This document shows positions 53,644 to 63,824 of a DNA stretch of 64,000 bases, in pieces (positions within the stretch are counted from its first letter, which is position 1; every line of letters begins with the position of its first letter). The DNA is taken from NCBI GenBank assembly GCA_010671905.1, contig JAAHII010000001.1, positions 5,332,001 to 5,396,000 on the forward strand. The letters run 5' to 3'. Source of the DNA: Leptolyngbya sp. SIOISBB. Its GTDB lineage: Bacteria; Cyanobacteriota; Cyanobacteriia; Phormidesmidales; Phormidesmidaceae. The notes under the pieces are model-generated. The model was not told the origin of the DNA. It searched no databases and saw only the letters and a program-made list of their open reading frames with translations. Made by a program: the position numbers and the translations under genes.

Positions 53644-53850
53644 CGATTACCTAGAGGAACATTGCGCTGACTGCGATCGCTGGTTTGACGCAGGCACGAA
53701 CGATCTCAGGTCCCGCATCGCTTGCCAAAACGCCTCCGAATTATAGAGGTCATCGTGCCGCTACCCGCAACGACTTTGTAGAACAATGAAACTGGAAGCA
53801 GAGTGGTGGCCTTGCTAAGCTAAGGCCATGTCATATTTCAAGTGAGCTTG

Positions 53851-54180
53851 ATGTCAACGGTGCTCTCTAATACCTCTGTCGAAATGATCACTATCTTTAA
53901 AGCGCTGTCGGAGCCTTTGCGGGTCGAAGTGATTGAACTGTTGCGTGAGCAAGAGATGTGTGTTTGCGATTTGTGCGATCGCCTCAATGTCGCTCAGTCG
54001 AAGCTTTCTTTTCATCTCAAAGCTTTGAAAAATGCCGGTTTGGTGCGATCACATCAGGAAGGCCGCTGGATTTATTATCGACTCAACTTATCGAGACTCA
54101 TCGCGCTAGAAGAGTATCTTTCGGACTTTCGTCGTTATAGCCCACGTTTGCCAGCTCGGACTTGCTTGCCTGAAGATTGA
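53851..54180 (+). CDS. arsR: ArsR-family arsenite-responsive repressor (type with CVCDLC)
   Basis: 109 residues from ATG 53851; GTG 53842 is an alternative. Winged helix with EMCVCDLCDRLNVAQSKLSF: the CVCDLC triad is the arsenite/antimonite sensor of E. coli-type ArsR. Controls the downstream acr3 gene, probably through TTGAAATGA sites at 54358 and 54455; a half site ATTTCAAG lies before its own start (53835-53842). Confidence 0.93.
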   Translation: MSTVLSNTSVEMITIFKALSEPLRVEVIELLREQEMCVCDLCDRLNVAQSKLSFHLKALKNAGLVRSHQEGRWIYYRLNLSRLIALEEYLSDFRRYSPRLPARTCLPED

Positions 54181-54339
54181 CAACAATTCAGATTGAATTA
54201 ATTGAATATATGACAGCTGGCTGATGCTTGATCTGGAAGTTTTTAAAGTTGCTATATGTGGCTGTAAGCCTTTTAAGATAAAGCTTTTGCTCTTTTAGCA
54301 TAAGAGCAAATAGAGCATGTGTTGTGTAATACCTAGGGC

Positions 54340-54366
54340 TTGACAATTCTATTAGATTTGAAATGA
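54340..54366 (+). promoter_or_regulatory. acr3 upstream promoter with ArsR half site
   Basis: TTGACA at 54340-54345 as -35, with TTGAAATGA (54358-54366) falling at the expected -10 region. The half site is identical to the right arm of the palindrome at 54455. A bound repressor would block RNA polymerase. Confidence 0.5.
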
Positions 54367-54454
54367 TGGATTTATCTGGCCAGTTATCGGTCTATATCTA
54401 TGAGCCGATCGGTCTGAAGTGTCAAGGGCATTGTGTCCTGTCTTAATTGGCATA

Positions 54455-54478
54455 TCATTTCAAGTCATATTGAAATGA
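54455..54478 (+). promoter_or_regulatory. ArsR operator palindrome before acr3
   Basis: TCATTTCAA - GTCATA - TTGAAATGA: perfect 9-bp arms around a 6-base centre, about 100 bp before the acr3 start. The frame of acr3 is open across it, but coding there is not family-like, which supports the downstream ATG. Confidence 0.7.
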
Positions 54479-54576
54479 TGTTGCTTGTAATATTGCTGGT
54501 CAGACATCGTCAATGTGCTGATCGCGATCGCCTCTTTCCTGACGGAACATTCGTTTATTGGACCCCTTCGCCTCCC

Positions 54577-55728
54577 ATGTCTACTAGCTCAGAAACGAAT
54601 TCCCCAGCTTTTCAAGCGGGCGGGCAACTCAGCTTTTTCGAACGCTACCTGACGGTCTGGGTCGCCCTCTGCATCGTGGCCGGCATCCTGTTGGGGCGAG
54701 TGTTTCCAGGGATTGCCGTCACCCTCGATGCCATGAGCATTTATCAGGTGTCGATTCCCATTGCGATCTGTCTGTTTTTCATGATGTATCCCATCATGGT
54801 GAAGATCGATTTTTCCCAGGCGAAGCGAGCCGCGCAGGCCCCTAAGCCGGTCGTGCTGACCTTAGTCGTGAACTGGCTGATCAAACCGTTCACGATGGTG
54901 GTGTTTGCTCAATTCTTTCTGGGTTGGCTCTTTCGTCCCTTGCTCAGTGGTACAGAAATGATTCGCGGCGCTGAGGTGGCGCTGGCGGACTCTTATATTG
55001 CTGGTTGCATTCTGCTCGGTATTGCGCCCTGTACGGCGATGGTGCTGATGTGGGGATATCTTTCCTTTAGCAATCAGGGCCACACGTTGGTGATGGTGGC
55101 GATTAACTCCCTGGCGATGCTGTTTTTGTATGCGCCGTTGGGACGGTGGCTTTTGGCTGCTAACAATTTGACCGTCCCCTGGGAAACAATTGTGATATCA
55201 GTGCTGGTTTATGTGGGGTTGCCATTGTTGGCAGGGGCGATGTCCCGCACATGGATTTTGCGCCACAAGGGTCGTGCTTGGTTTAATGACGTGTTTTTGA
55301 AGTATCTCAGCCCTATTTCGGTGATTGCTCTGTTAACGACTTTGGTGCTGCTGTTTGCGTTCAAAGGCGATCTGATTGTGCGCAATCCGCTGCACATTGT
55401 GTTGATTGCGGTGCCTCTACTTCTCCAGACCAACTTCATTTTTCTGATTACCTATGTCGCTGCTCAAAAGCTGGGGATGTTTTATGAGGATGCGGCTCCG
55501 GCAGCGCTGATTGGGGCGAGCAATCACTTTGAAGTCGCGATCGCCACGGCAGTTACTCTGTTTGGCCTCAACTCTGGTGCCGCTTTAGCAACGGTTGTCG
55601 GCGTGCTTATTGAGGTGCCCGTCATGCTCCTGCTGGTAGAAGTTTGTAAAAAAACGGCTTTCTGGTTTCCCCGCGAACCCGAAAAGGCCACGCTGCATGA
55701 TCCCCGCTGTGCACGGCCATTGGGGTAA
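54577..55728 (+). CDS. acr3: ACR3-family arsenite efflux permease
   Basis: 383 residues from ATG 54577; the frame runs to 54433 but crosses the operator. Ten hydrophobic segments; the essential Cys is in [17 protein letters not shown] (near 152). [20 protein letters not shown] is the typical first helix, and [18 protein letters not shown] a late conserved motif. Exports arsenite driven by proton gradient. Heart of the arsenic island. Confidence 0.96.
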
Positions 55729-55756
55729 GCGCAATGCTCGTGAGCAGAGTTGTCAA

Positions 55757-55794
55757 TTTAAGGGAAAAGACAGGGTTTAAGGGAAAAGACAGGG
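55757..55794 (+). repeat. Two tandem 19-bp repeats
   Basis: TTTAAGGGAAAAGACAGGG occurs twice without a gap in the 124-bp acr3-methyltransferase spacer, followed by GAGCAAGG-like purine repeats. Copy-number-variable sequence; no known role. Confidence 0.75.
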
Positions 55795-55852
55795 GAGCAA
55801 GGGAGCAAGAGGGCGGGATGTGTGGTGGCAATTGAGGGGATCAGGGTAAGTC

Positions 55853-56491
55853 ATGGAAACCTTAGTGCAGCAGCAATACGATCGCCTCGCCAGTATTTAT
55901 GACCAGCGCTGGCAGTTTTACATTACGCGTACGCTGTCCTTTTTAGTGGAATGGGCACGCATTTCCCCTGATAAAACCGTGCTCGATGTAGCCTGTGGTA
56001 CTGGCGAGTTGGAGCGCTTGCTGGTTGAACAACACTCAGAGCAAACCATTACGGGGGTGGATTTTTCAGAACCGATGCTGGCGATCGCTCGCCAGAAACT
56101 AGAAGCTCGCCCCTCGGTTACCTTTCAGCAGGCATCGGCAGCGGCTTTGCCAGGGCCGCCATCTGACTTTGATGTCGTGATCTGTGCCAATGCTTTTCAC
56201 TATTTCAACGAACCGGAGCAGGTTCTTTCAGAAATGCAGCGGGTGCTGCGACCGACTGGGCGGGTCGTGATTTTGGATTGGTGCCGCGATTTCCTGGTTT
56301 GTCGGTTCTGTGACTGGGTATTGAGTCGATTCGATCCGGGGCATCAGAATTGCTATACCGAGGCCGAACTTCACGAATTATTGACCAGGGCAGGATATCG
56401 AATACAGCGATCGCAGCGGCACCGATTTGGCTTCATTTGGGGCTTGATGGCGGTTGAAGCTGTTCCCCTTGATAAGCAATTGAACCCTTAA
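55853..56491 (+). CDS. UbiE-like SAM-dependent methyltransferase in the arsenic island
   Basis: 212 residues. Motif I VLDVACGTGELERLL (near 43-57), TGVDFSEPMLAIARQK, FDVVICANAFHYFNEP and VLRPTGRVVILDWCRD. It has a Cys-rich patch DWCRDFLVCRFCDW (141-155) but lacks the ArsM sequence pattern I would expect. Between acr3 and arsC, same strand, 13 bp before arsC. A thiol-metalloid substrate is suggested by place and cysteines only. Confidence 0.82.
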   Translation: METLVQQQYDRLASIYDQRWQFYITRTLSFLVEWARISPDKTVLDVACGTGELERLLVEQHSEQTITGVDFSEPMLAIARQKLEARPSVTFQQASAAALPGPPSDFDVVICANAFHYFNEPEQVLSEMQRVLRPTGRVVILDWCRDFLVCRFCDWVLSRFDPGHQNCYTEAELHELLTRAGYRIQRSQRHRFGFIWGLMAVEAVPLDKQLNP

Positions 56492-56504
56492 CAGGAGACA
56501 AACG

Positions 56505-56915
56505 ATGAAACGAGTCATGTTTGTGTGCAAAAAGAATTCCTCGCGCTCTCAAATGGCTGAGGGCTTTGCGAAAACCTTGGGGGCGGGCAAAATCACCGTC
56601 ACCAGTTCCGGTTTGGAGGCCAGTTCGGTCAGACCAGAGGCGATCGCCACTATGCAAAATATTGGCATCGACATTAGCGACCAAACCTCCAACGCCCTCA
56701 GTGAATTTAAACCGGAAGACTTTGATGCGGTGATTTCTCTCTGTGGCTGCGGCGTCAATCTGCCCCCAGAGTGGCTCGCCCGCGAGTACTTTGATGACTG
56801 GCAACTGGACGACCCGGCAGAGCAACCAGAAATCTTTCCCCGCGTCCGCGATGAAGTCCAAGAACGAGTGGAAGCGCTCATTGCCAAACTGAATTCCGAA
56901 GCCGTTGCTTCTTAG
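56505..56915 (+). CDS. arsC: Arsenate reductase, LMW-phosphatase fold, glutaredoxin-linked type
   Basis: 136 residues. P-loop FVCKKNSSRSQMAEGFAKTL with nucleophile Cys8, and SLCGCGVNLPPEW with the Cys pair near 80/82, the layout of Synechocystis-type ArsC that uses glutathione/glutaredoxin. The P-loop has Ser13 where I recall Cys in Synechocystis. AGGAG 8 bp upstream of the ATG. Reduces arsenate so that Acr3 can export arsenite. Confidence 0.94.
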   Translation: MKRVMFVCKKNSSRSQMAEGFAKTLGAGKITVTSSGLEASSVRPEAIATMQNIGIDISDQTSNALSEFKPEDFDAVISLCGCGVNLPPEWLAREYFDDWQLDDPAEQPEIFPRVRDEVQERVEALIAKLNSEAVAS

Positions 56916-56976
56916 AGTTATCTTTTGGGGGCCAGGCCTTGATTTGAAAGCGTTGGGTGACTCAATAACGAAAATT

Positions 56977-57023
56977 CAACCTGTGAAAGGTTGACATAAA
57001 TCAGTATTTCGATGATTATCGAA
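56977..57023 (+). promoter_or_regulatory. arsR2 promoter overlapped by a palindromic operator
   Basis: TTGACA (56991-56996), 17-base spacer, GATTAT (57014-57019). TTCGAT-GATT-ATCGAA (57008-57023) is a perfect 6-bp-arm palindrome over the -10; CAACCT-GTGAA-AGGTTG (56977-56993) is a second over the -35. The ATG at 57026 is 6 bp after the -10, so the mRNA would be leaderless or start at the ATG. Confidence 0.65.
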
Positions 57024-57025
57024 TC

Positions 57026-57406
57026 ATGGGAATACAGCCGACATCTGAAGGCTCTTTAGAGCACATTGCAGCAGCGTTTGCGGCCCTGGGTCAGCCATCG
57101 CGATTGAGAATTGTGCGGCTACTGCTATCTGCGTACCCTCAGGGCTTGCCCGCCGGAGAAATTCAGAAAGAATTGGAAGTATCGGCTCCAACGCTTTCTC
57201 ATCATCTTGACAAGCTGCGACAAGTTGGTATTGTTACGGCTCAAAAAGACCGGCAGTGGATTTGGTATAGCGTGCAGTCAGAATCGCTGAGATATCTGAT
57301 CGATTTCTTGTTTGAAGAATGCTGTACCCGTAACCAGGTGGTGGCGATGGAAGATCTAGAACTCGCGGAAGTGAGTTCTAGATCTGGAAACGAGTGTTGT
57401 GATTGA
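57026..57406 (+). CDS. arsR2: Second ArsR/SmtB-family repressor with C-terminal Cys pairs
   Basis: 126 residues. Winged helix with FAALGQPSRLRIVRLLLSAY and LEVSAPTLSHHLDKLRQVGI. It lacks CVCDLC; instead ECC (near 101) and a terminal ECCD supply cysteines, a layout like other ArsR subtypes that sense trivalent or organic arsenicals. Promoter and operator directly in front suggest autoregulation of arsR2-arsP-58521-arsH. Confidence 0.9.
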   Translation: MGIQPTSEGSLEHIAAAFAALGQPSRLRIVRLLLSAYPQGLPAGEIQKELEVSAPTLSHHLDKLRQVGIVTAQKDRQWIWYSVQSESLRYLIDFLFEECCTRNQVVAMEDLELAEVSSRSGNECCD

Positions 57407-57466
57407 GCGCAAAAAATTTTGGTTTTTATTTCGATGTTTGCCTAAATATCAAAGGATGTATTTGCA

Positions 57467-58507
57467 ATGGCATCTAGTGTACTGACACGACTTAACCGGA
57501 GTGTACGGCAGTTTGATGGGGTCGCTTTGGCGATCTCCGTCATCTTCCTTGTCCTGATCTTTCTCGCTCCGGCACAGGCCTCTGGCAGTCTTAGCTTTAC
57601 CCTTGAAAACCTGTGGAATGTTGCCCCCTTCTTGCTCCTCTCCATTGGTATCGCCGCCTACGCCGCCGCTAGTGGCGCTGACAATCTGATTGCTAAGGCC
57701 TTCCAGGGCAAGCTGATGGTGATGATTCCCATAGCGGCGCTGTTTGGGGCCTTTTCCCCATTCTGTTCCTGTGGGGTGATTCCCCTGATTGCGGCGCTGC
57801 TGTCGATGGGGGTGCCTGTCGCTGCTGTGATGGCCTTTTGGTTGTCTTCGCCTTTAATGGATCCTTCCATGTTTGTGCTGACAGTGGGGACCTTGGGGCT
57901 GCAGTTTGCGATCGCTAAAACCTTGGCAACTGTGGCGATCGGACTGTTGGGTGGTTTCGGTACCTTAGCGCTTATGCGTTCCGGTTGGTCGTCCGCTGCT
58001 TTTGAAAACCCCCTGCATGAAGGTGTCGGTAATGGCGGCTGTGGTGGGAGCCGCGTCCGCAATCCCAAGCCCATTGCTTGGCAGTTTTGGAGCGAGGCAG
58101 AGCGCCAGCAAAAATTCTGGAAAGGCGCTAGCAAGAATGCTTGGTTCCTCGGCAAGTGGTTAACCCTCGCCTTTGTGCTCGAAAGTTTGATGATTGTGTA
58201 TGTGCCCAATGAATGGATTCAGGCGATCGCAGGTGACGGCGGTTTATTCTCTATCGGCTTAGCGGCGTTGGTCGGCATCCCGGCTTACCTCAATGGTTAC
58301 GCGGCATTGCCTCTGGTCGAGGGCCTGATTCAGCAGGGGATGTCTCCTGGGGCTGGCATGACGTTTTTACTAGCCGGTGGGGCAACGAGCATTCCAGCTA
58401 TGATTGCGGTTTTTGCCCTAGCCCGTCGTCCAGTTTTTGTCGCTTATCTAGCGTTTGCATTTATCGGATCCGTGATTGCCGGTTTAGTCTATACAGTCGT
58501 CATTTGA
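57467..58507 (+). CDS. arsP: ArsP-like permease (DUF318, organoarsenical efflux)
   Basis: 346 residues, eight or more hydrophobic segments. FGAFSPFCSCGVIPLIAALL (near 95-114) is the hallmark; a second Cys/Gly-rich loop GNGGCGGSRVRNP lies in the middle. ArsP members export trivalent methylated or aromatic arsenicals. The AAAGGATG leader sits before the ATG; 60 bp after arsR2. Confidence 0.9.
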   Translation: MASSVLTRLNRSVRQFDGVALAISVIFLVLIFLAPAQASGSLSFTLENLWNVAPFLLLSIGIAAYAAASGADNLIAKAFQGKLMVMIPIAALFGAFSPFCSCGVIPLIAALLSMGVPVAAVMAFWLSSPLMDPSMFVLTVGTLGLQFAIAKTLATVAIGLLGGFGTLALMRSGWSSAAFENPLHEGVGNGGCGGSRVRNPKPIAWQFWSEAERQQKFWKGASKNAWFLGKWLTLAFVLESLMIVYVPNEWIQAIAGDGGLFSIGLAALVGIPAYLNGYAALPLVEGLIQQGMSPGAGMTFLLAGGATSIPAMIAVFALARRPVFVAYLAFAFIGSVIAGLVYTVVI

Positions 58508-58520
58508 GTGAGATTAAGTT

Positions 58521-59144
58521 ATGCATCCTATCAATGTGCTGCCCAATGTCACGTTGCACGCTCACGGCGTTGTCTCTGAAAAGTTTCTGCAGCGAGGACT
58601 CAAGACCTTCCACGATGCTTGTTGTTGGACGAGGGATTTGCCGTACGGAGCCAACTCTAACAGTGAAGATTCGCTCATTTTGTTTGAGGAAGGCTGTGGA
58701 ACGTGTACGACGAAGCACGGGGTGATCGCTCGTCTAGCTCAAGAACACGATCTGCCAATTCACAAAAACCTAGGTTTCTATCGTCTCAACGATGACATTG
58801 TGACGGGAGTGAATCCGATTCTGGCGTCCTACGACCTTGACTTTATCCCCCAAATCCACTGCTTTTTGGTTTACGAAAACTGCCGAGTGGATCTGACGGA
58901 TGGTAATTGCAACGGCAAAAACAAAACGATTGAGGACTACGATTATGTCGTTCAGGTCGAGCCAGATCTGTCTGAAGCAAAGCACCAAGCCTGTTATCTG
59001 GAATATCTGCAACGGTATGCTGACAGCTTTCCGAAACTGGCAGCGCTGGGCGAAACGACGGTGATGGAAGTCCTGACTGCATGCGATCGCCAGTTGAAAT
59101 TTCAGTGCTCGATCTTCGTTCAAGAACTGGCTACGGCCACATAG
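58521..59144 (+). CDS. Unrecognised Cys-rich protein, transglutaminase-like motif, in the arsenic island
   Basis: 207 residues, 13 bp after arsP and so likely co-transcribed. No known name. Seen: CCW at 34-36, EEGCGTCTTKHGVIARLAQE (57-76) in which Cys62 would start a helix as in transglutaminase-like or papain-type folds, PQIHCFLVYENCRVDLTDGN (110-129) giving a His113 and Asp124, in the Cys-His-Asp order and spacing of that superfamily. Ten Cys in all. No signal peptide or membrane helix. It may act on glutathione, phytochelatin-like peptides or As-thiols; this is inference from place and motif. Confidence 0.7.
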   Translation: MHPINVLPNVTLHAHGVVSEKFLQRGLKTFHDACCWTRDLPYGANSNSEDSLILFEEGCGTCTTKHGVIARLAQEHDLPIHKNLGFYRLNDDIVTGVNPILASYDLDFIPQIHCFLVYENCRVDLTDGNCNGKNKTIEDYDYVVQVEPDLSEAKHQACYLEYLQRYADSFPKLAALGETTVMEVLTACDRQLKFQCSIFVQELATAT

Positions 59145-59298
59145 AGGACTGTGGTTTGCCCAGTTGCCGACACCGTTCCCTGTTTGAGATCCCTCCACTC
59201 GCTCAGAACTGCCGGAATTCCTTGCTAGTCTGGCCTGACCAAAAGGCGGTGAGGCTGGTGATCATTCAGACTCCTGTTGTTGCTCTATCAAAATTGCT

Positions 59299-59943
59299 AT
59301 GAGTTTTGACCACAAACCGCGCATCTTGTTTTTGTATGGCTCCTTACGCGAGCGCTCCTACAGTCGGTTAGCAGCTGAAGAAGCCGCCCGCATCATTACC
59401 GACTTTGGCGCTGAAGTGAAATTCTTTGACCCGCGCGGTTTACCGCTGCACGGAGCCGAACCCGACACTCACCCCAAAGTGCAGGAACTCCGGGAACTGT
59501 CGCTATGGTCGGAAGGGCAGGTGTGGTCGAGTCCCGAGATGCATGGCAACATTTCTGGATTGATGAAAACGCAGATTGACTGGATTCCTCTCAGTATGGG
59601 CGCAATTCGGCCCACTCAAGGACGAACGCTAGCGGTGATGCAAGTCTCGGGCGGCTCGCAATCTTTTAACGCGGTGAATACGATGCGGCTGTTGGGGCGC
59701 TGGATGCGGATGTTCACGATTCCCAATCAGTCGTCGGTGGCCAAGGCCTATCAGGAGTTCCATGAAGACGGCACGATGAAAGAGTCGGCTTACCGCGATC
59801 GCATCGTCGACGTGATGGAAGAACTCTACCGCTTTACCCTATTGCTGCGGGATAAAACGGACGAACTGACTGATCGCTATAGTGAACGCAAGGCGGCGGC
59901 AGCAAAACAGATTGAAGAAACGGCGAAAAAAGCAGTGCAATAA
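59299..59943 (+). CDS. arsH: ArsH NADPH-dependent FMN oxidoreductase
   Basis: 214 residues, flavodoxin-like. [20 protein letters not shown] holds the FMN phosphate loop; [20 protein letters not shown] and [20 protein letters not shown] are typical ArsH. Oxidises trivalent organoarsenicals to less toxic pentavalent forms and reduces quinones or metals. Last gene of the island; 154 bp after the unrecognised gene. Confidence 0.95.
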
Positions 59944-60430: not shown

Positions 60431-62053
60431 TTAGACGCCATATTGATCAATTTGCTCTTTGAGATATTCATCGGGTTGGGCGGGGTCAAAATCACCAAAT
60501 TTCAGGTTTTCGACTCGGGTCAACTCTTCGGGCGCGTCTGCCCCCAGTTCTTCAGCCAATTCACGAGCCAAATCCGTCAAAAAGATCTGCTCGCCAATTT
60601 CGTCATAGTTGGCGTCTTCTGTCGGCATATATCCCCAGCGCACCAGTTGGGTCGAGATCCAACTGGCAAAGCTCTTCCAAGGGTAAGGATCAAAGTAAAT
60701 GCGATCGGGCACTTCTAGGGTATTGCCCTGACCATCTTCAAAGTTGCCGGTCATCACGGCTTCCAGGACTTCGACTGGTTGGTTGAGATATTCTCGTGGG
60801 GCGATCGCCGCCGCAATTTCTTTGCGGTTAGCCGGTTCATTGGCATAGGTGGCACCGTCAATGATGGCCTTGTTGAGGGCGCGGAAGGTGTTGGGATTTT
60901 CGTCGATCCAATCTTGAGCGGCGACAAACGCACAGCAGGGATGCCCCGGCCACAAATCCTTCGTCAGCAGATGGATGAAGCCGATATCGTTAAACACCAC
61001 CCGCTGGGTAAAGTTGTCGGGCAGGATAAAGGCGTCAATTTGACCGGTAGACATTTGGGCGATCGCATCGGGAGGCGGCAGAATGAGCAGCTTCACATCT
61101 TGATCTGGGTCTAACCCGCCAGAAGCCAAGTAGTACCGCAAAATCAGATTGTGATTGGAATAGTCGTAGGGAATGCCAATGGTCATCCCCTTAAAGTCAG
61201 CCGGGCCATTCACTTTGCCCAGGTGCTTTTTAGCGACGGCAATCCCTTGGCCGTTGTTGTTTTCAATGCTCGCCAGCTTCACTGAGAAGGCCGATGAACC
61301 CAATCCCAGTGACATCGCGATCGGCATCGGGGCCAGCATGTGATAAGCATCCAGTTCACCTGCGATCGCCGCATCGCGCACCACTGACCAACTGGCGTAT
61401 TTCATCAATTCCACATTGAGGCCGTGCTTGTCATAAAAGCCCAGCGGGTCAGACATAATGATGGGCGATGCACAGGTGATAGGCAAAAACGCGATCTTCA
61501 GATCATTTTTTTCTAAATCACCCGTGGTCGGAGGCGTGGGGGTTTCCCCTTCCGGCGTTGCTTCGTCGGTGGGCTGCTGAGCACAATTTGCCAGGGTCAC
61601 CAGGGCCGAACCCACAGCAATATTTTTCAAAAATTTGCGGCGCGTAAACTGGCTAGTGCGCTGGGCATCGGTAAAAAACTGACCCGCTTTAGGGCCAAAG
61701 GCAGCGGCAAACGCCTCATCCAAGCCGCCTGCCAGCTTAATCAAGTCCAGCACTAACTTTTCGCGCTTTGGTTGACCTTTACCAGCCATCTTGACAAACA
61801 GTGAAGTGCGGAGCTCTGCTTGACTGATGGCATCAGCAACCGCGAGGGCTTCTGGCTGATACAGGCGCATTTTGACTAAATCATCAATCAAATTAGCCGG
61901 CTCGTGGGGCATATCGGCCATAAATTTCCAGTGATCTTCGGTGGAATGGACGCTGCCACAAATCAAACACCGCACGGCAATGTCACCAACGTTCCCCTGC
62001 TGACACGACAGACTATTCCATCTTTGGCTGGGGGTTGATACAGAGTTAATCAT
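60431..62053 (-). CDS. CmpA/NrtA-family ABC substrate-binding protein with extra N-terminal domain
   Basis: 540 residues. Residues about 165-540 are the periplasmic binding domain (IAFLPITCASPIIMSDPLGF, LRYYLASGGLDPDQDVKLLI), like CmpA/NrtA that bind bicarbonate or nitrate. A twin-arginine lipoprotein signal, FTRRKFLKNIAVGS...LANC (RR 138-139, Cys157), lies in the middle rather than at the N-terminus. The preceding 135 residues include CLICGSVHSTEDHWKF, a possible metal site, and two amphipathic helices. The frame is uninterrupted from ATG 62053. No permease or ATPase gene is adjacent in the window. Ligand unknown. Confidence 0.85.
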   Translation of the reverse strand: MINSVSTPSQRWNSLSCQQGNVGDIAVRCLICGSVHSTEDHWKFMADMPHEPANLIDDLVKMRLYQPEALAVADAISQAELRTSLFVKMAGKGQPKREKLVLDLIKLAGGLDEAFAAAFGPKAGQFFTDAQRTSQFTRRKFLKNIAVGSALVTLANCAQQPTDEATPEGETPTPPTTGDLEKNDLKIAFLPITCASPIIMSDPLGFYDKHGLNVELMKYASWSVVRDAAIAGELDAYHMLAPMPIAMSLGLGSSAFSVKLASIENNNGQGIAVAKKHLGKVNGPADFKGMTIGIPYDYSNHNLILRYYLASGGLDPDQDVKLLILPPPDAIAQMSTGQIDAFILPDNFTQRVVFNDIGFIHLLTKDLWPGHPCCAFVAAQDWIDENPNTFRALNKAIIDGATYANEPANRKEIAAAIAPREYLNQPVEVLEAVMTGNFEDGQGNTLEVPDRIYFDPYPWKSFASWISTQLVRWGYMPTEDANYDEIGEQIFLTDLARELAEELGADAPEELTRVENLKFGDFDPAQPDEYLKEQIDQYGV

Positions 62054-62663: not shown

Positions 62664-63824
62664 TTAAGAAGCAGTAGTTAAAGCTTCTTCTGGCAGTGCA
62701 AATAGCATCTTCTTCAGATGCTTAAGGGCGGGAGTGACGATCGCCACAAAATAGGCCTCGCGCAACTTCCGCTCTGGAGCACTGCCATGGACATAAGCTC
62801 GCGCTCCAGCATGCAACATCGTCGCTTGAGCAGCTCTCAAGGAGAGTTCTGAGCCGACAATACGAGCTTGCACGACTTCCCGCAGCAGTTGGTCATCAAT
62901 CATGCCCTCGCTGGCATCCAGCCGATCTGCTAGTGCGTAGGTGCGATCGCGGGCCATTAACAAATCAGCTTCAATATCCTCAGTCTGATCATCCAAGAAG
63001 CGATTTACATGCCCCAATCGCTTATTAGACCGCTTCATCAACTCTACACAGCTATCCACCAAGCCCAAACCCATGCCCACTTGGGTCAAGATAAATCCAG
63101 GGCGGATGCGCAGAACGTATTCTTCACAGGGAGCCGCTAACACCCTGGTATCGGGCACAAACACATCGCGAAAGACGCAGCTATAGGTACCGGTGCCTTC
63201 AAGGGCGATGAAATGCGCGTTGCAGCGTAGCGTCATGCCCGCCATCTCGTCAGAAACGACGGCCATCATGTAGTCTTCACTATCGGCAATTTTGGCAGCG
63301 ATGCCGAACCAATGTCCTGGTCCTAAATTGGAGACCCAAGGTAACATCCCATTCACCCGAAAGCCTCCTTCTACAGGCTCAGCGGTCAAGGCAATTTTTT
63401 CAATCTCAACGAAATGCTTCATCGGGTTCGAGAGGCCGGTGCCTGCCAGTTGCTTGCCTGCGGCAATATCGGGCAACAATTCACTCGCCAAGGCTTGATT
63501 ATCCGTATTTTGCAAGTACCAAGTACAGGCCACTTGACACCAGGCCATAAACCCAGTGGACATGCATTCCTTAGAGATTTCTTCGATACTTTGAATGGCT
63601 GCCTTGAGGCCGAGACCAGTGCCACCCAGTTCGGGGACGACGGCATGGGCAAAAGCGCCTGCATTGCCCAGCTGATGTAAGATTTCGCTAGGATACTCAC
63701 CCTCTAAATCAATGTCTGCAACTTTGGGTGCTAAGGACTTTTGAACGACGTCTCTGACAGCTTCGGCAGCAGCTTGGAAATCGTGATTAGCACTTTTACT
63801 AGAAATTGTTTGAAGGATCTGCAT
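62664..63824 (-). CDS. Acyl-CoA dehydrogenase-like flavoprotein
   Basis: 386 residues. N-terminal helical domain (AGAFAHAVVPELGGTGLGLK), middle beta domain (GGFRVNGMLPWVSNLGPGHW) and C-terminal helical domain (RIVGSELSLRAAQATMLHAG) in normal order. The family oxidises acyl-CoAs or, in the DszC/SfnC branch, hydroxylates small S- or N-compounds with FMNH2. I could not confirm the catalytic Glu by eye. Same strand as the binding-protein gene, 600 bp apart with a terminator between, so separately transcribed. Sequence from 63825 to the window end shows no gene. Confidence 0.85.
   Translation of the reverse strand: MQILQTISSKSANHDFQAAAEAVRDVVQKSLAPKVADIDLEGEYPSEILHQLGNAGAFAHAVVPELGGTGLGLKAAIQSIEEISKECMSTGFMAWCQVACTWYLQNTDNQALASELLPDIAAGKQLAGTGLSNPMKHFVEIEKIALTAEPVEGGFRVNGMLPWVSNLGPGHWFGIAAKIADSEDYMMAVVSDEMAGMTLRCNAHFIALEGTGTYSCVFRDVFVPDTRVLAAPCEEYVLRIRPGFILTQVGMGLGLVDSCVELMKRSNKRLGHVNRFLDDQTEDIEADLLMARDRTYALADRLDASEGMIDDQLLREVVQARIVGSELSLRAAQATMLHAGARAYVHGSAPERKLREAYFVAIVTPALKHLKKMLFALPEEALTTAS

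Follow-up and report, generated by a model that had tools for sequence, protein, structure and literature searches.

A predicted transglutaminase-like protein of cyanobacterial ars and phn clusters and its possible place between phosphonate and organoarsenical metabolism

Introduction

What does the 207-residue protein encoded between arsP and arsH in a cyanobacterial arsenic cluster do, and why is it kept there? We studied this gene, here called TGL, in a window (the whole stretch of DNA that was analysed) of 64,000 nucleotides from the 8.34 Mb genome of Leptolyngbya sp. SIOISBB. An earlier sequence-only reading of the window had proposed a cysteine-rich, transglutaminase-like enzyme of arsenic detoxification, perhaps acting on As–glutathione or As–phytochelatin.

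The functions of the neighbouring genes are summarised in the accessible part of one source (PMC6205960): ArsP is an exporter of trivalent organoarsenicals, MAs(III), which ArsH oxidises and whose C–As bond ArsI cleaves. Phosphonate genes have been met beside arsenic genes before; the available text of PMC3834237 describes phnCDE operons beside aio arsenic islands in arsenite oxidisers, and the question of the role of Phn proteins beside arsenic genes in these organisms is raised in the accessible part of a review (PMC7533571). Cyanobacterial breakdown of methylphosphonate leads to methane in oxic water, as stated in the available part of PMC5955973. Among the titles and opening lines of abstracts listed from the open-access literature, none reports ars or phn clusters with a transglutaminase-like protein, or a link between C–P lyase, organoarsenicals and TGL; one review in these lists, PMC12857756, contains 'transglutaminase' and arsenic terms once each.

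Results

The TGL gene and its ars cluster

The features of the cluster, with the codons of the putative catalytic residues, are as follows (coordinates are those of the window):

53842..54180, + strand: ArsR/SmtB-type repressor, first gene of the cluster (Pfam and NCBIfam scans)
54433..55728, + strand: ACR3 arsenite efflux transporter (TIGR00832, above cut-off)
55853-56491, + strand: UbiE-like methyltransferase in the interval between acr3 and arsC (family scans)
56505..56915, + strand: arsenate reductase (arsC) of the glutathione/glutaredoxin type (TIGR02689, above cut-off)
57026..57406, + strand: second ArsR/SmtB-type repressor, 5' of arsP (Pfam and NCBIfam scans)
57467..58507, + strand: ArsP-type permease (PF03773, ArsP_1, 138 bits, cut-off 32.3)
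58521..59144, + strand: TGL, 207-residue transglutaminase-like protein with the putative triad C62–H113–D124 (ATG start)
58704..58706, + strand: codon of Cys62, putative nucleophile (first residue of predicted helix 62–75)
58857..58859, + strand: codon of His113 (within predicted strand 109–118)
58890..58892, + strand: codon of Asp124 (after predicted strand 121–123)
59299..59943, + strand: ArsH (TIGR02690, 383 bits, cut-off 292)

All genes of the cluster (53842-59943) lie on the + strand in the order arsR–acr3–UbiE-like methyltransferase–arsC–arsR–arsP–TGL–arsH. The open reading frame of TGL and its motifs GCGTCTTKH, IHCFLVYENC and RVDLTDG are present as the sequence-only reading had described them, and so is the 13-nt spacing from arsP, which ends at 58507, to TGL, which starts at 58521; a further 154 nt separate the end of TGL from the start of arsH. 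The name of the permease rests on Pfam and position, since it passes PF03773 without an NCBIfam equivalog (its NCBIfam matches, to SO_0444/SaoE transporters, are all below cut-off). For the UbiE-like methyltransferase, the arsenite-methyltransferase models score far under their cut-offs (e.g. 49 vs 263 bits). On the 3' side of the cluster, the reverse strand encodes an NMT1-like substrate-binding protein (60431-62053) and an acyl-CoA-dehydrogenase-like protein (62664-63824). The scan for promoters and terminators gives no reading, as its 3 and 5 sites are close to the 2.7 and 3.8 found in shuffled sequences.

On the reverse strand of the TGL stretch, two stops interrupt the translated frame and a 142-residue open reading frame (58770-59198) overlaps TGL. 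The reading frame of TGL is kept by its cyanobacterial homologs at 54–73% identity, and dN/dS is 0.04–0.13 in six of eight homolog pairs (with dS saturated for some of the six and undefined for the other two). TGL is therefore a genuine gene, and a chance open reading frame is ruled out; its product is small and probably soluble.

Predicted fold and putative catalytic triad

The AlphaFold2 model of TGL, built with 15 sequences, has a pLDDT of 90.8 and a pTM of 0.88, and the predicted secondary structure agrees with the placement of the triad. Foldseek returned nothing at E <= 0.001 (best E 0.095); its top rows hold a putative cysteine protease, CPR-C4, vasohibin, PeiP, a TGase, LapG and an arylamine N-acetyltransferase, together with menin and other chains. 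The top VIA-align rows are mostly transglutaminase/papain-like and all have Z < 8, a range that may reflect merely a common arrangement and in which Z alone does not prove kinship: PeiW (Z 7.7, rmsd 3.4, 123 aligned), PeiP (Z 6.9, rmsd 3.7, 122 aligned), CPR-C4 (Z 6.7, rmsd 5.5, 147 aligned), arylamine N-acetyltransferase (Z 6.6, rmsd 4.1, 149 aligned) and LapG (Z 5.3, rmsd 4.1, 114 aligned). The pseudomurein endoisopeptidases PeiW and PeiP, LapG and CPR-C4 are thus among the best structural matches (Z 5.3–7.7), but TGL shares just 5–11% identity with them, and their partners and substrates are different.

Concerning sequence families, an hhalign comparison of a 26-homolog TGL profile with five Transglut_core domains encoded in the window's genome gave a probability of 80.6% and an E of 1.3e-5, the latter being the value for one single comparison. 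The register puts C62 on the Transglut_core cysteine, which is kept by four of the five domains; it is unchanged against one of these domains alone, though with a probability of just 13.5%. The match spans 49 columns around the cysteine and ends before the His and Asp. TGL resembles Transglut_core (PF01841) in the order of these residues, with a Cys at the start of a helix and then a His and an Asp located on strands or after them; it stays below the gathering cut-off of that family. TGL itself has no PF01841 match at E <= 10, and hmmscan gave weak matches in 3 of 18 and 2 of 12 homologs (best E 0.0064), also below the gathering cut-off. NCBIfam holds no match to TGL at E <= 1, and among 12 homologs its matches include neither an ars nor a phn family; none of the matches listed in the Pfam and NCBIfam scans of TGL and its homologs is above cut-off. 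A search of PDB sequences with TGL gave one match (E 0.83) and the profile search zero.

The residues C62, H113 and D124 are identical in all 30 complete homologs compared (21/21 cyanobacterial and 9/9 from the Bacteroidota side), a count that leaves out L021, where the contig edge ends the sequence inside TGL. Besides the triad, Y42, N45, K65, H66, A73, P110, L116 and T126 are invariant in these sequences. Based on the confident model, the profile match at C62 and the invariance of the triad, the predicted transglutaminase-like fold with a Cys62–His113–Asp124 triad is well supported and very probably correct. The order of these residues, read earlier as that of transglutaminase-like and papain-like folds, is thereby supported by conservation and model and, at C62, by hhalign. 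The profile comparison and structure prediction that had been suggested as a check came out well at C62 and in model confidence, whereas no individual fold match stands out as strong.

The chains of arylamine N-acetyltransferases (NATs) align with TGL from residues 12–17 to 207 (Z 5.2–6.6, rmsd 4.0–4.6), and a GNAT resembling PhnO, below cut-off, is found in several phn clusters; an N-acyltransferase of the NAT kind, acylating amino-organoarsenicals or aminophosphonates, would suit both observations. However, the NAT chains listed are longer (252–340 residues against 207 in TGL), and the low Z is level with that of the hydrolases, so we regard such an activity as highly improbable. Phytochelatin synthase and its bacterial half-enzymes are papain-like Cys–His–Asp enzymes that act on glutathione, and are a possible functional parallel to TGL; they do not appear among the sequence and fold matches listed, an absence that excludes nothing.

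Conservation of the cysteines

TGL has ten cysteines, as had been counted earlier. C35, C59, C121 and C158 vary among homologs, and six (C34, C62, C114, C130, C188 and C196) are conserved in the cyanobacterial clade. C62 and C188 are common to the cyanobacterial and Bacteroidota-side sequences. The other four differ between the two sets: C34 (21/21 vs 1/9), C130 (21/21 vs 0/9), C114 (21/21 vs 6/9) and C196 (20/21 vs 0/9, the exception being L065, which ends early). The motif N129-C-N-G-K-N134 is fixed in the cyanobacterial clade. As just six of the ten are conserved, a metallothionein-like signature is rejected. The suggestion that the cysteines suit metalloid or thiol chemistry is not supported as a metalloid signature either, as the putative catalytic Cys also occurs in Bacteroidota-side homologs in the inspected flanks of which ars genes were not seen.

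A non-hydrolytic role, in which C62 together with C34, C114, C130 and C196 would bind or reduce methylarsenicals (as a chaperone or a thiol-based MAs(V) reductase), draws on the near confinement of C34, C130 and C196 to the cyanobacterial clade and on the presence of C114 in 21/21 of its sequences. Against it, homologs without C34, C130 and C196 still retain H113 and D124; the ancestral chemistry therefore looks catalytic, and we find binding or reduction decidedly unlikely.

Relatives beyond cyanobacteria

A scan of GTDB genomes with the single TGL sequence returned zero relatives and the profile 15 loci; since the patterns of the profile are partly cyanobacteria-specific, relatives in other phyla may escape it. 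In the phylum of Taibaiella, 7 of 395 genomes carry a TGL homolog. The searches of IMG/VR viral contigs and of phages turned up no relative, and the plasmid search found a sole one, on an Aureibacter plasmid, where a heavy-metal P-type ATPase lies ~3 kb away and no ars or phn genes are annotated in 6 kb. Also, neither ars nor phn neighbours were seen in the flanks of Bacteroidota-side homologs inspected by eye or annotation.

Gene neighbourhoods in cyanobacteria

We compared 22 distinct cyanobacterial loci: the window, L005–L021 and L062–L065. Repeats of other loci (L001–L004, L023–L026, L041–L061) and a second, shortened TGL copy in genome G1002 (L066/L072) were left out of the locus counts. 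Neighbours took their names from family scans of a choice of members, from searches of the genomes for PF03773, ArsH, PhnJ and ArsI and from the published Nodularia spumigena table, otherwise from BLAST clusters.

All 22 loci have organoarsenical (arsP, arsI) or phn genes a few genes from TGL. In 11, arsP lies directly 5' of TGL on the same strand with gaps of 8–157 nt, so that the order arsR–arsP–gene–(arsH), for which a survey had been proposed, does recur. In seven others (L007, L011, L016, L017, L018, L020 and L065) arsI is within three genes, and in the remaining four (L005, L006, L009 and L021) phn genes are nearest, at most three genes off; in L021, whose contig stops within TGL, one gene separates TGL from phn. 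The fetched stretch contains several phn genes in nine loci (L005, L006, L008, L009, L018, L021 and L062–L064), an arsR–arsP–TGL unit lying among or beside them in L062, L063 and L064; L065 has a single phnE-like gene, and several other loci are short contigs. TGL directly follows phnM in L006, where 15 kb of fetched sequence has no ars gene among its ORFs, and phnM plus Phn-HD in L005. A gene tree of 22 rows implies at least seven changes among arsP, arsI and phn contexts, with coarse labels. The recurring partner genes rule out TGL as a random passenger.

Some further arrangements were observed in these genomes. A DSP-type phosphatase gene adjoins TGL in L017 (146-622) and L065 (6457-6918) and lies two genes from it in L011 (11318-11842); all three loci are of the arsI type. 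In L067 (5442-17399, genome G837), arsR–arsI–arsP stands between phnF/phnG and phnE–phnD–phnC without TGL, so organoarsenical genes also enter phn clusters on their own. The phn cluster of the window's genome (L068 5192-10130, near 2.678 Mb) reads phnG–H–GNAT–I–J with phnF on the opposite strand; phnK, phnL and phnM were not seen in 8.9 kb of fetched sequence 3' of phnJ. The second TGL copy of G1002 (L066 5057-5479 / L072 58-480) stops early after GNCNG, 2.9 kb from phnJ. Cyanobacterial C–P lyase clusters can also contain a gene for a FosA-type fosfomycin glutathione transferase (NF000496, above cut-off; L069 6560-6985, L070 7276-7716).

Concerning expression, the TGL homolog of N. spumigena CCY9414 should be nsp7500 by its position after phnM; this gene is labelled 'hypothetical protein in phn cluster' in the accessible part of PMC3610870. 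In the available data of PMC9846622 it shares an operon number with phnG–M and is little changed under phosphate limitation (log2 0.99, 0.49 and 0.52). In N. spumigena UHCC 0039, two further phn-cluster genes were significantly upregulated on methylphosphonate, according to the accessible text of PMC5955973; based on the matching count of 14 genes, we infer that the TGL homolog is one of them.

Co-occurrence with phnJ and organoarsenical genes

The search for TGL, PF03773, ArsH, PhnJ and ArsI covered 63 genomes of the window's order; 45 of them are >=90% complete and <=5% contaminated, and those of low completeness were retained. The arsP count comprises 17 genomes with PF03773 at 119–143 bits over most of the profile, including G792, whose match covers positions 102-293 only. 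Fragments (such as those in G800, G807, G820, G830, G832, G835, G839 and G843) and a widespread, higher-scoring PF03773 class were dropped, the split by bits being a judgement. ArsH and ArsI matches below the curated cut-off were not counted. A second order was searched for TGL and phnJ only.

phnJ is present in all 13 TGL carriers of the window's order and in 11 of the 50 non-carriers, with a fragment among these 11 (Fisher test, 2.4e-7). Species kinship was addressed, for this order only, by permuting labels within genera: 13 was reached in 0 of 100,000 permutations. The second order repeats the pattern, with phnJ in 7/7 carriers and 36/381 non-carriers (1.3e-7), the 36 including two fragments and one below-cut-off match. 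TGL and phnJ are at most 35 kb apart on one contig in 11 of the 20 carriers (in G1002 via the shortened copy); in the other nine they are on different contigs or more than 2.5 Mb apart (2.7 Mb in the window's genome, 5.4 Mb in G797 and 4.0 Mb in G338), so physical linkage alone cannot explain the co-occurrence. The phnJ side of the pattern is robust, and shared ecology may lie behind part of it.

Sorted by both traits, the genomes of the window's order carry TGL in 13/18 cases with phnJ and an organoarsenical gene, 0/6 with phnJ only, 0/24 with organoarsenical genes only and 0/15 with neither. An organoarsenical gene is present in 13/13 carriers, a figure which depends on the cut-offs. Among phnJ genomes the need for an organoarsenical gene (13/18 vs 0/6) has a P of 0.003; this side of the co-occurrence is fragile, as three of the six (G819, G838 and G839) hold partial, uncounted matches to ArsH, ArsI or ArsP and the search of the second order covered TGL and phnJ only. 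Looking at each gene separately, arsH is found in 12/13 carriers vs 20/50 non-carriers and the same-class ArsP in 9/13 vs 8/50, while arsI is not commoner in carriers (3/13 vs 15/50, P 0.74). In non-carriers the presence of arsH, arsP or arsI shows no relation to that of phnJ (P 1.0, 0.35 and 0.71), and we rejected them on this test as what phnJ tracks. The tie of TGL to C–P lyase is stricter than that to any single ars gene. TGL is not essential to either pathway, given the G837 cluster and the 47 of 67 phnJ genomes without it (11/24 in the window's order, 36/43 in the second).

These counts bear on two simpler explanations. As an ordinary ars gene, TGL would be an arsenic–thiol hydrolase of the kind suggested by the sequence-only reading, cleaving peptide bonds of (methyl)arsenic–glutathione complexes, and C–P lyase would be incidental; the predicted fold and conserved triad, the adjacency to arsP or proximity to arsI (within three genes) in 18/22 loci and the glutathione/glutaredoxin type of the window's arsenate reductase are consistent with this. 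The absence of TGL from all 24 organoarsenical-only genomes, against 13/18 of those also with phnJ, argues otherwise, as does L006 with its TGL among phn genes and no ars genes in 15 kb, and we consider such a hydrolase quite unlikely. Conversely, TGL could be an accessory enzyme of C–P lyase which releases phosphonates bound in N-acyl or peptide form, or which processes a Phn protein, with the ars genes hitch-hiking in mobile islands. The presence of phnJ in 20/20 carriers of two orders, the position of TGL after phnM (L006) or phnM plus Phn-HD (L005) and the methylphosphonate response of two extra phn-cluster genes in the accessible text of PMC5955973 point in this direction. The arsP and arsI neighbours of those same 18/22 loci speak against it, as does the lack of TGL in the six phnJ genomes for which no organoarsenical gene was counted, three of which have partial matches; we judge an accessory role on the unlikely side.

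Discussion

The statistical coupling suggests that TGL is functionally tied to phosphonate together with organoarsenical metabolism, which we regard as somewhat probable. If this tie is granted, cysteine-dependent amide-bond chemistry has, in our judgement, about an even chance. Our preferred reading combines the two: TGL may be a cysteine-dependent amide-bond enzyme at the point where phosphonate catabolism meets organoarsenical defence, a proposal put forward tentatively, with slightly less than even confidence.

Methylarsonate resembles methylphosphonate and could for that reason be imported or mis-processed by a cell that has phosphonate uptake and C–P lyase. A cell of this kind would take up arsonates as phosphonate mimics, and a small organoarsenical or phosphonate adduct would arise from them. 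C62 of TGL would then attack an amide bond of the adduct, either hydrolysing it or transferring its acyl group. TGL would thus act with ArsP (export), ArsI (C–As cleavage) and ArsH (oxidation) in protecting phosphonate use from organoarsenicals. The likeliest single reaction would be one in which TGL trims the adduct's glutathione peptide. Fosfomycin, the known substrate of FosA, is a phosphonate, and a FosA-type glutathione transferase was seen in the phn clusters of just two TGL carriers (L069 and L070); a glutathione adduct is for this reason the first guess at the substrate, though as a specific assignment it is unlikely.

TGL differs from the proteins with which it is found: it shares operons with ArsP, ArsI and ArsH and matches none of their families. 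The phnCDE/aio islands, as described in the available text of PMC3834237, likewise have phosphonate genes adjoining arsenic genes; there a transporter accompanies aio/ars, whereas the TGL loci join C–P lyase with organoarsenical genes in cyanobacteria.

Natural waters contain arsenic species that mimic phosphorus compounds. The restriction of TGL to C–P lyase genomes in two orders, mostly beside organoarsenical genes, suggests a specific arsenic–phosphonate problem. In its strongest form, the proposal is that cells living on methylphosphonate via C–P lyase would import or make organoarsenical analogues, and that TGL would be the dedicated enzyme of a hitherto undescribed 'arsonate-proofing' step, converting an arsenical adduct beyond the reach of ArsP, ArsI and ArsH alone. 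We think this rather unlikely as it stands; if true, TGL would belong to a new class of enzymes acting on organoarsenicals and would link the phosphonate and arsenic cycles directly at the level of biochemistry. The analysis singles out one protein for testing, and a conserved, unannotated family gains a testable role.
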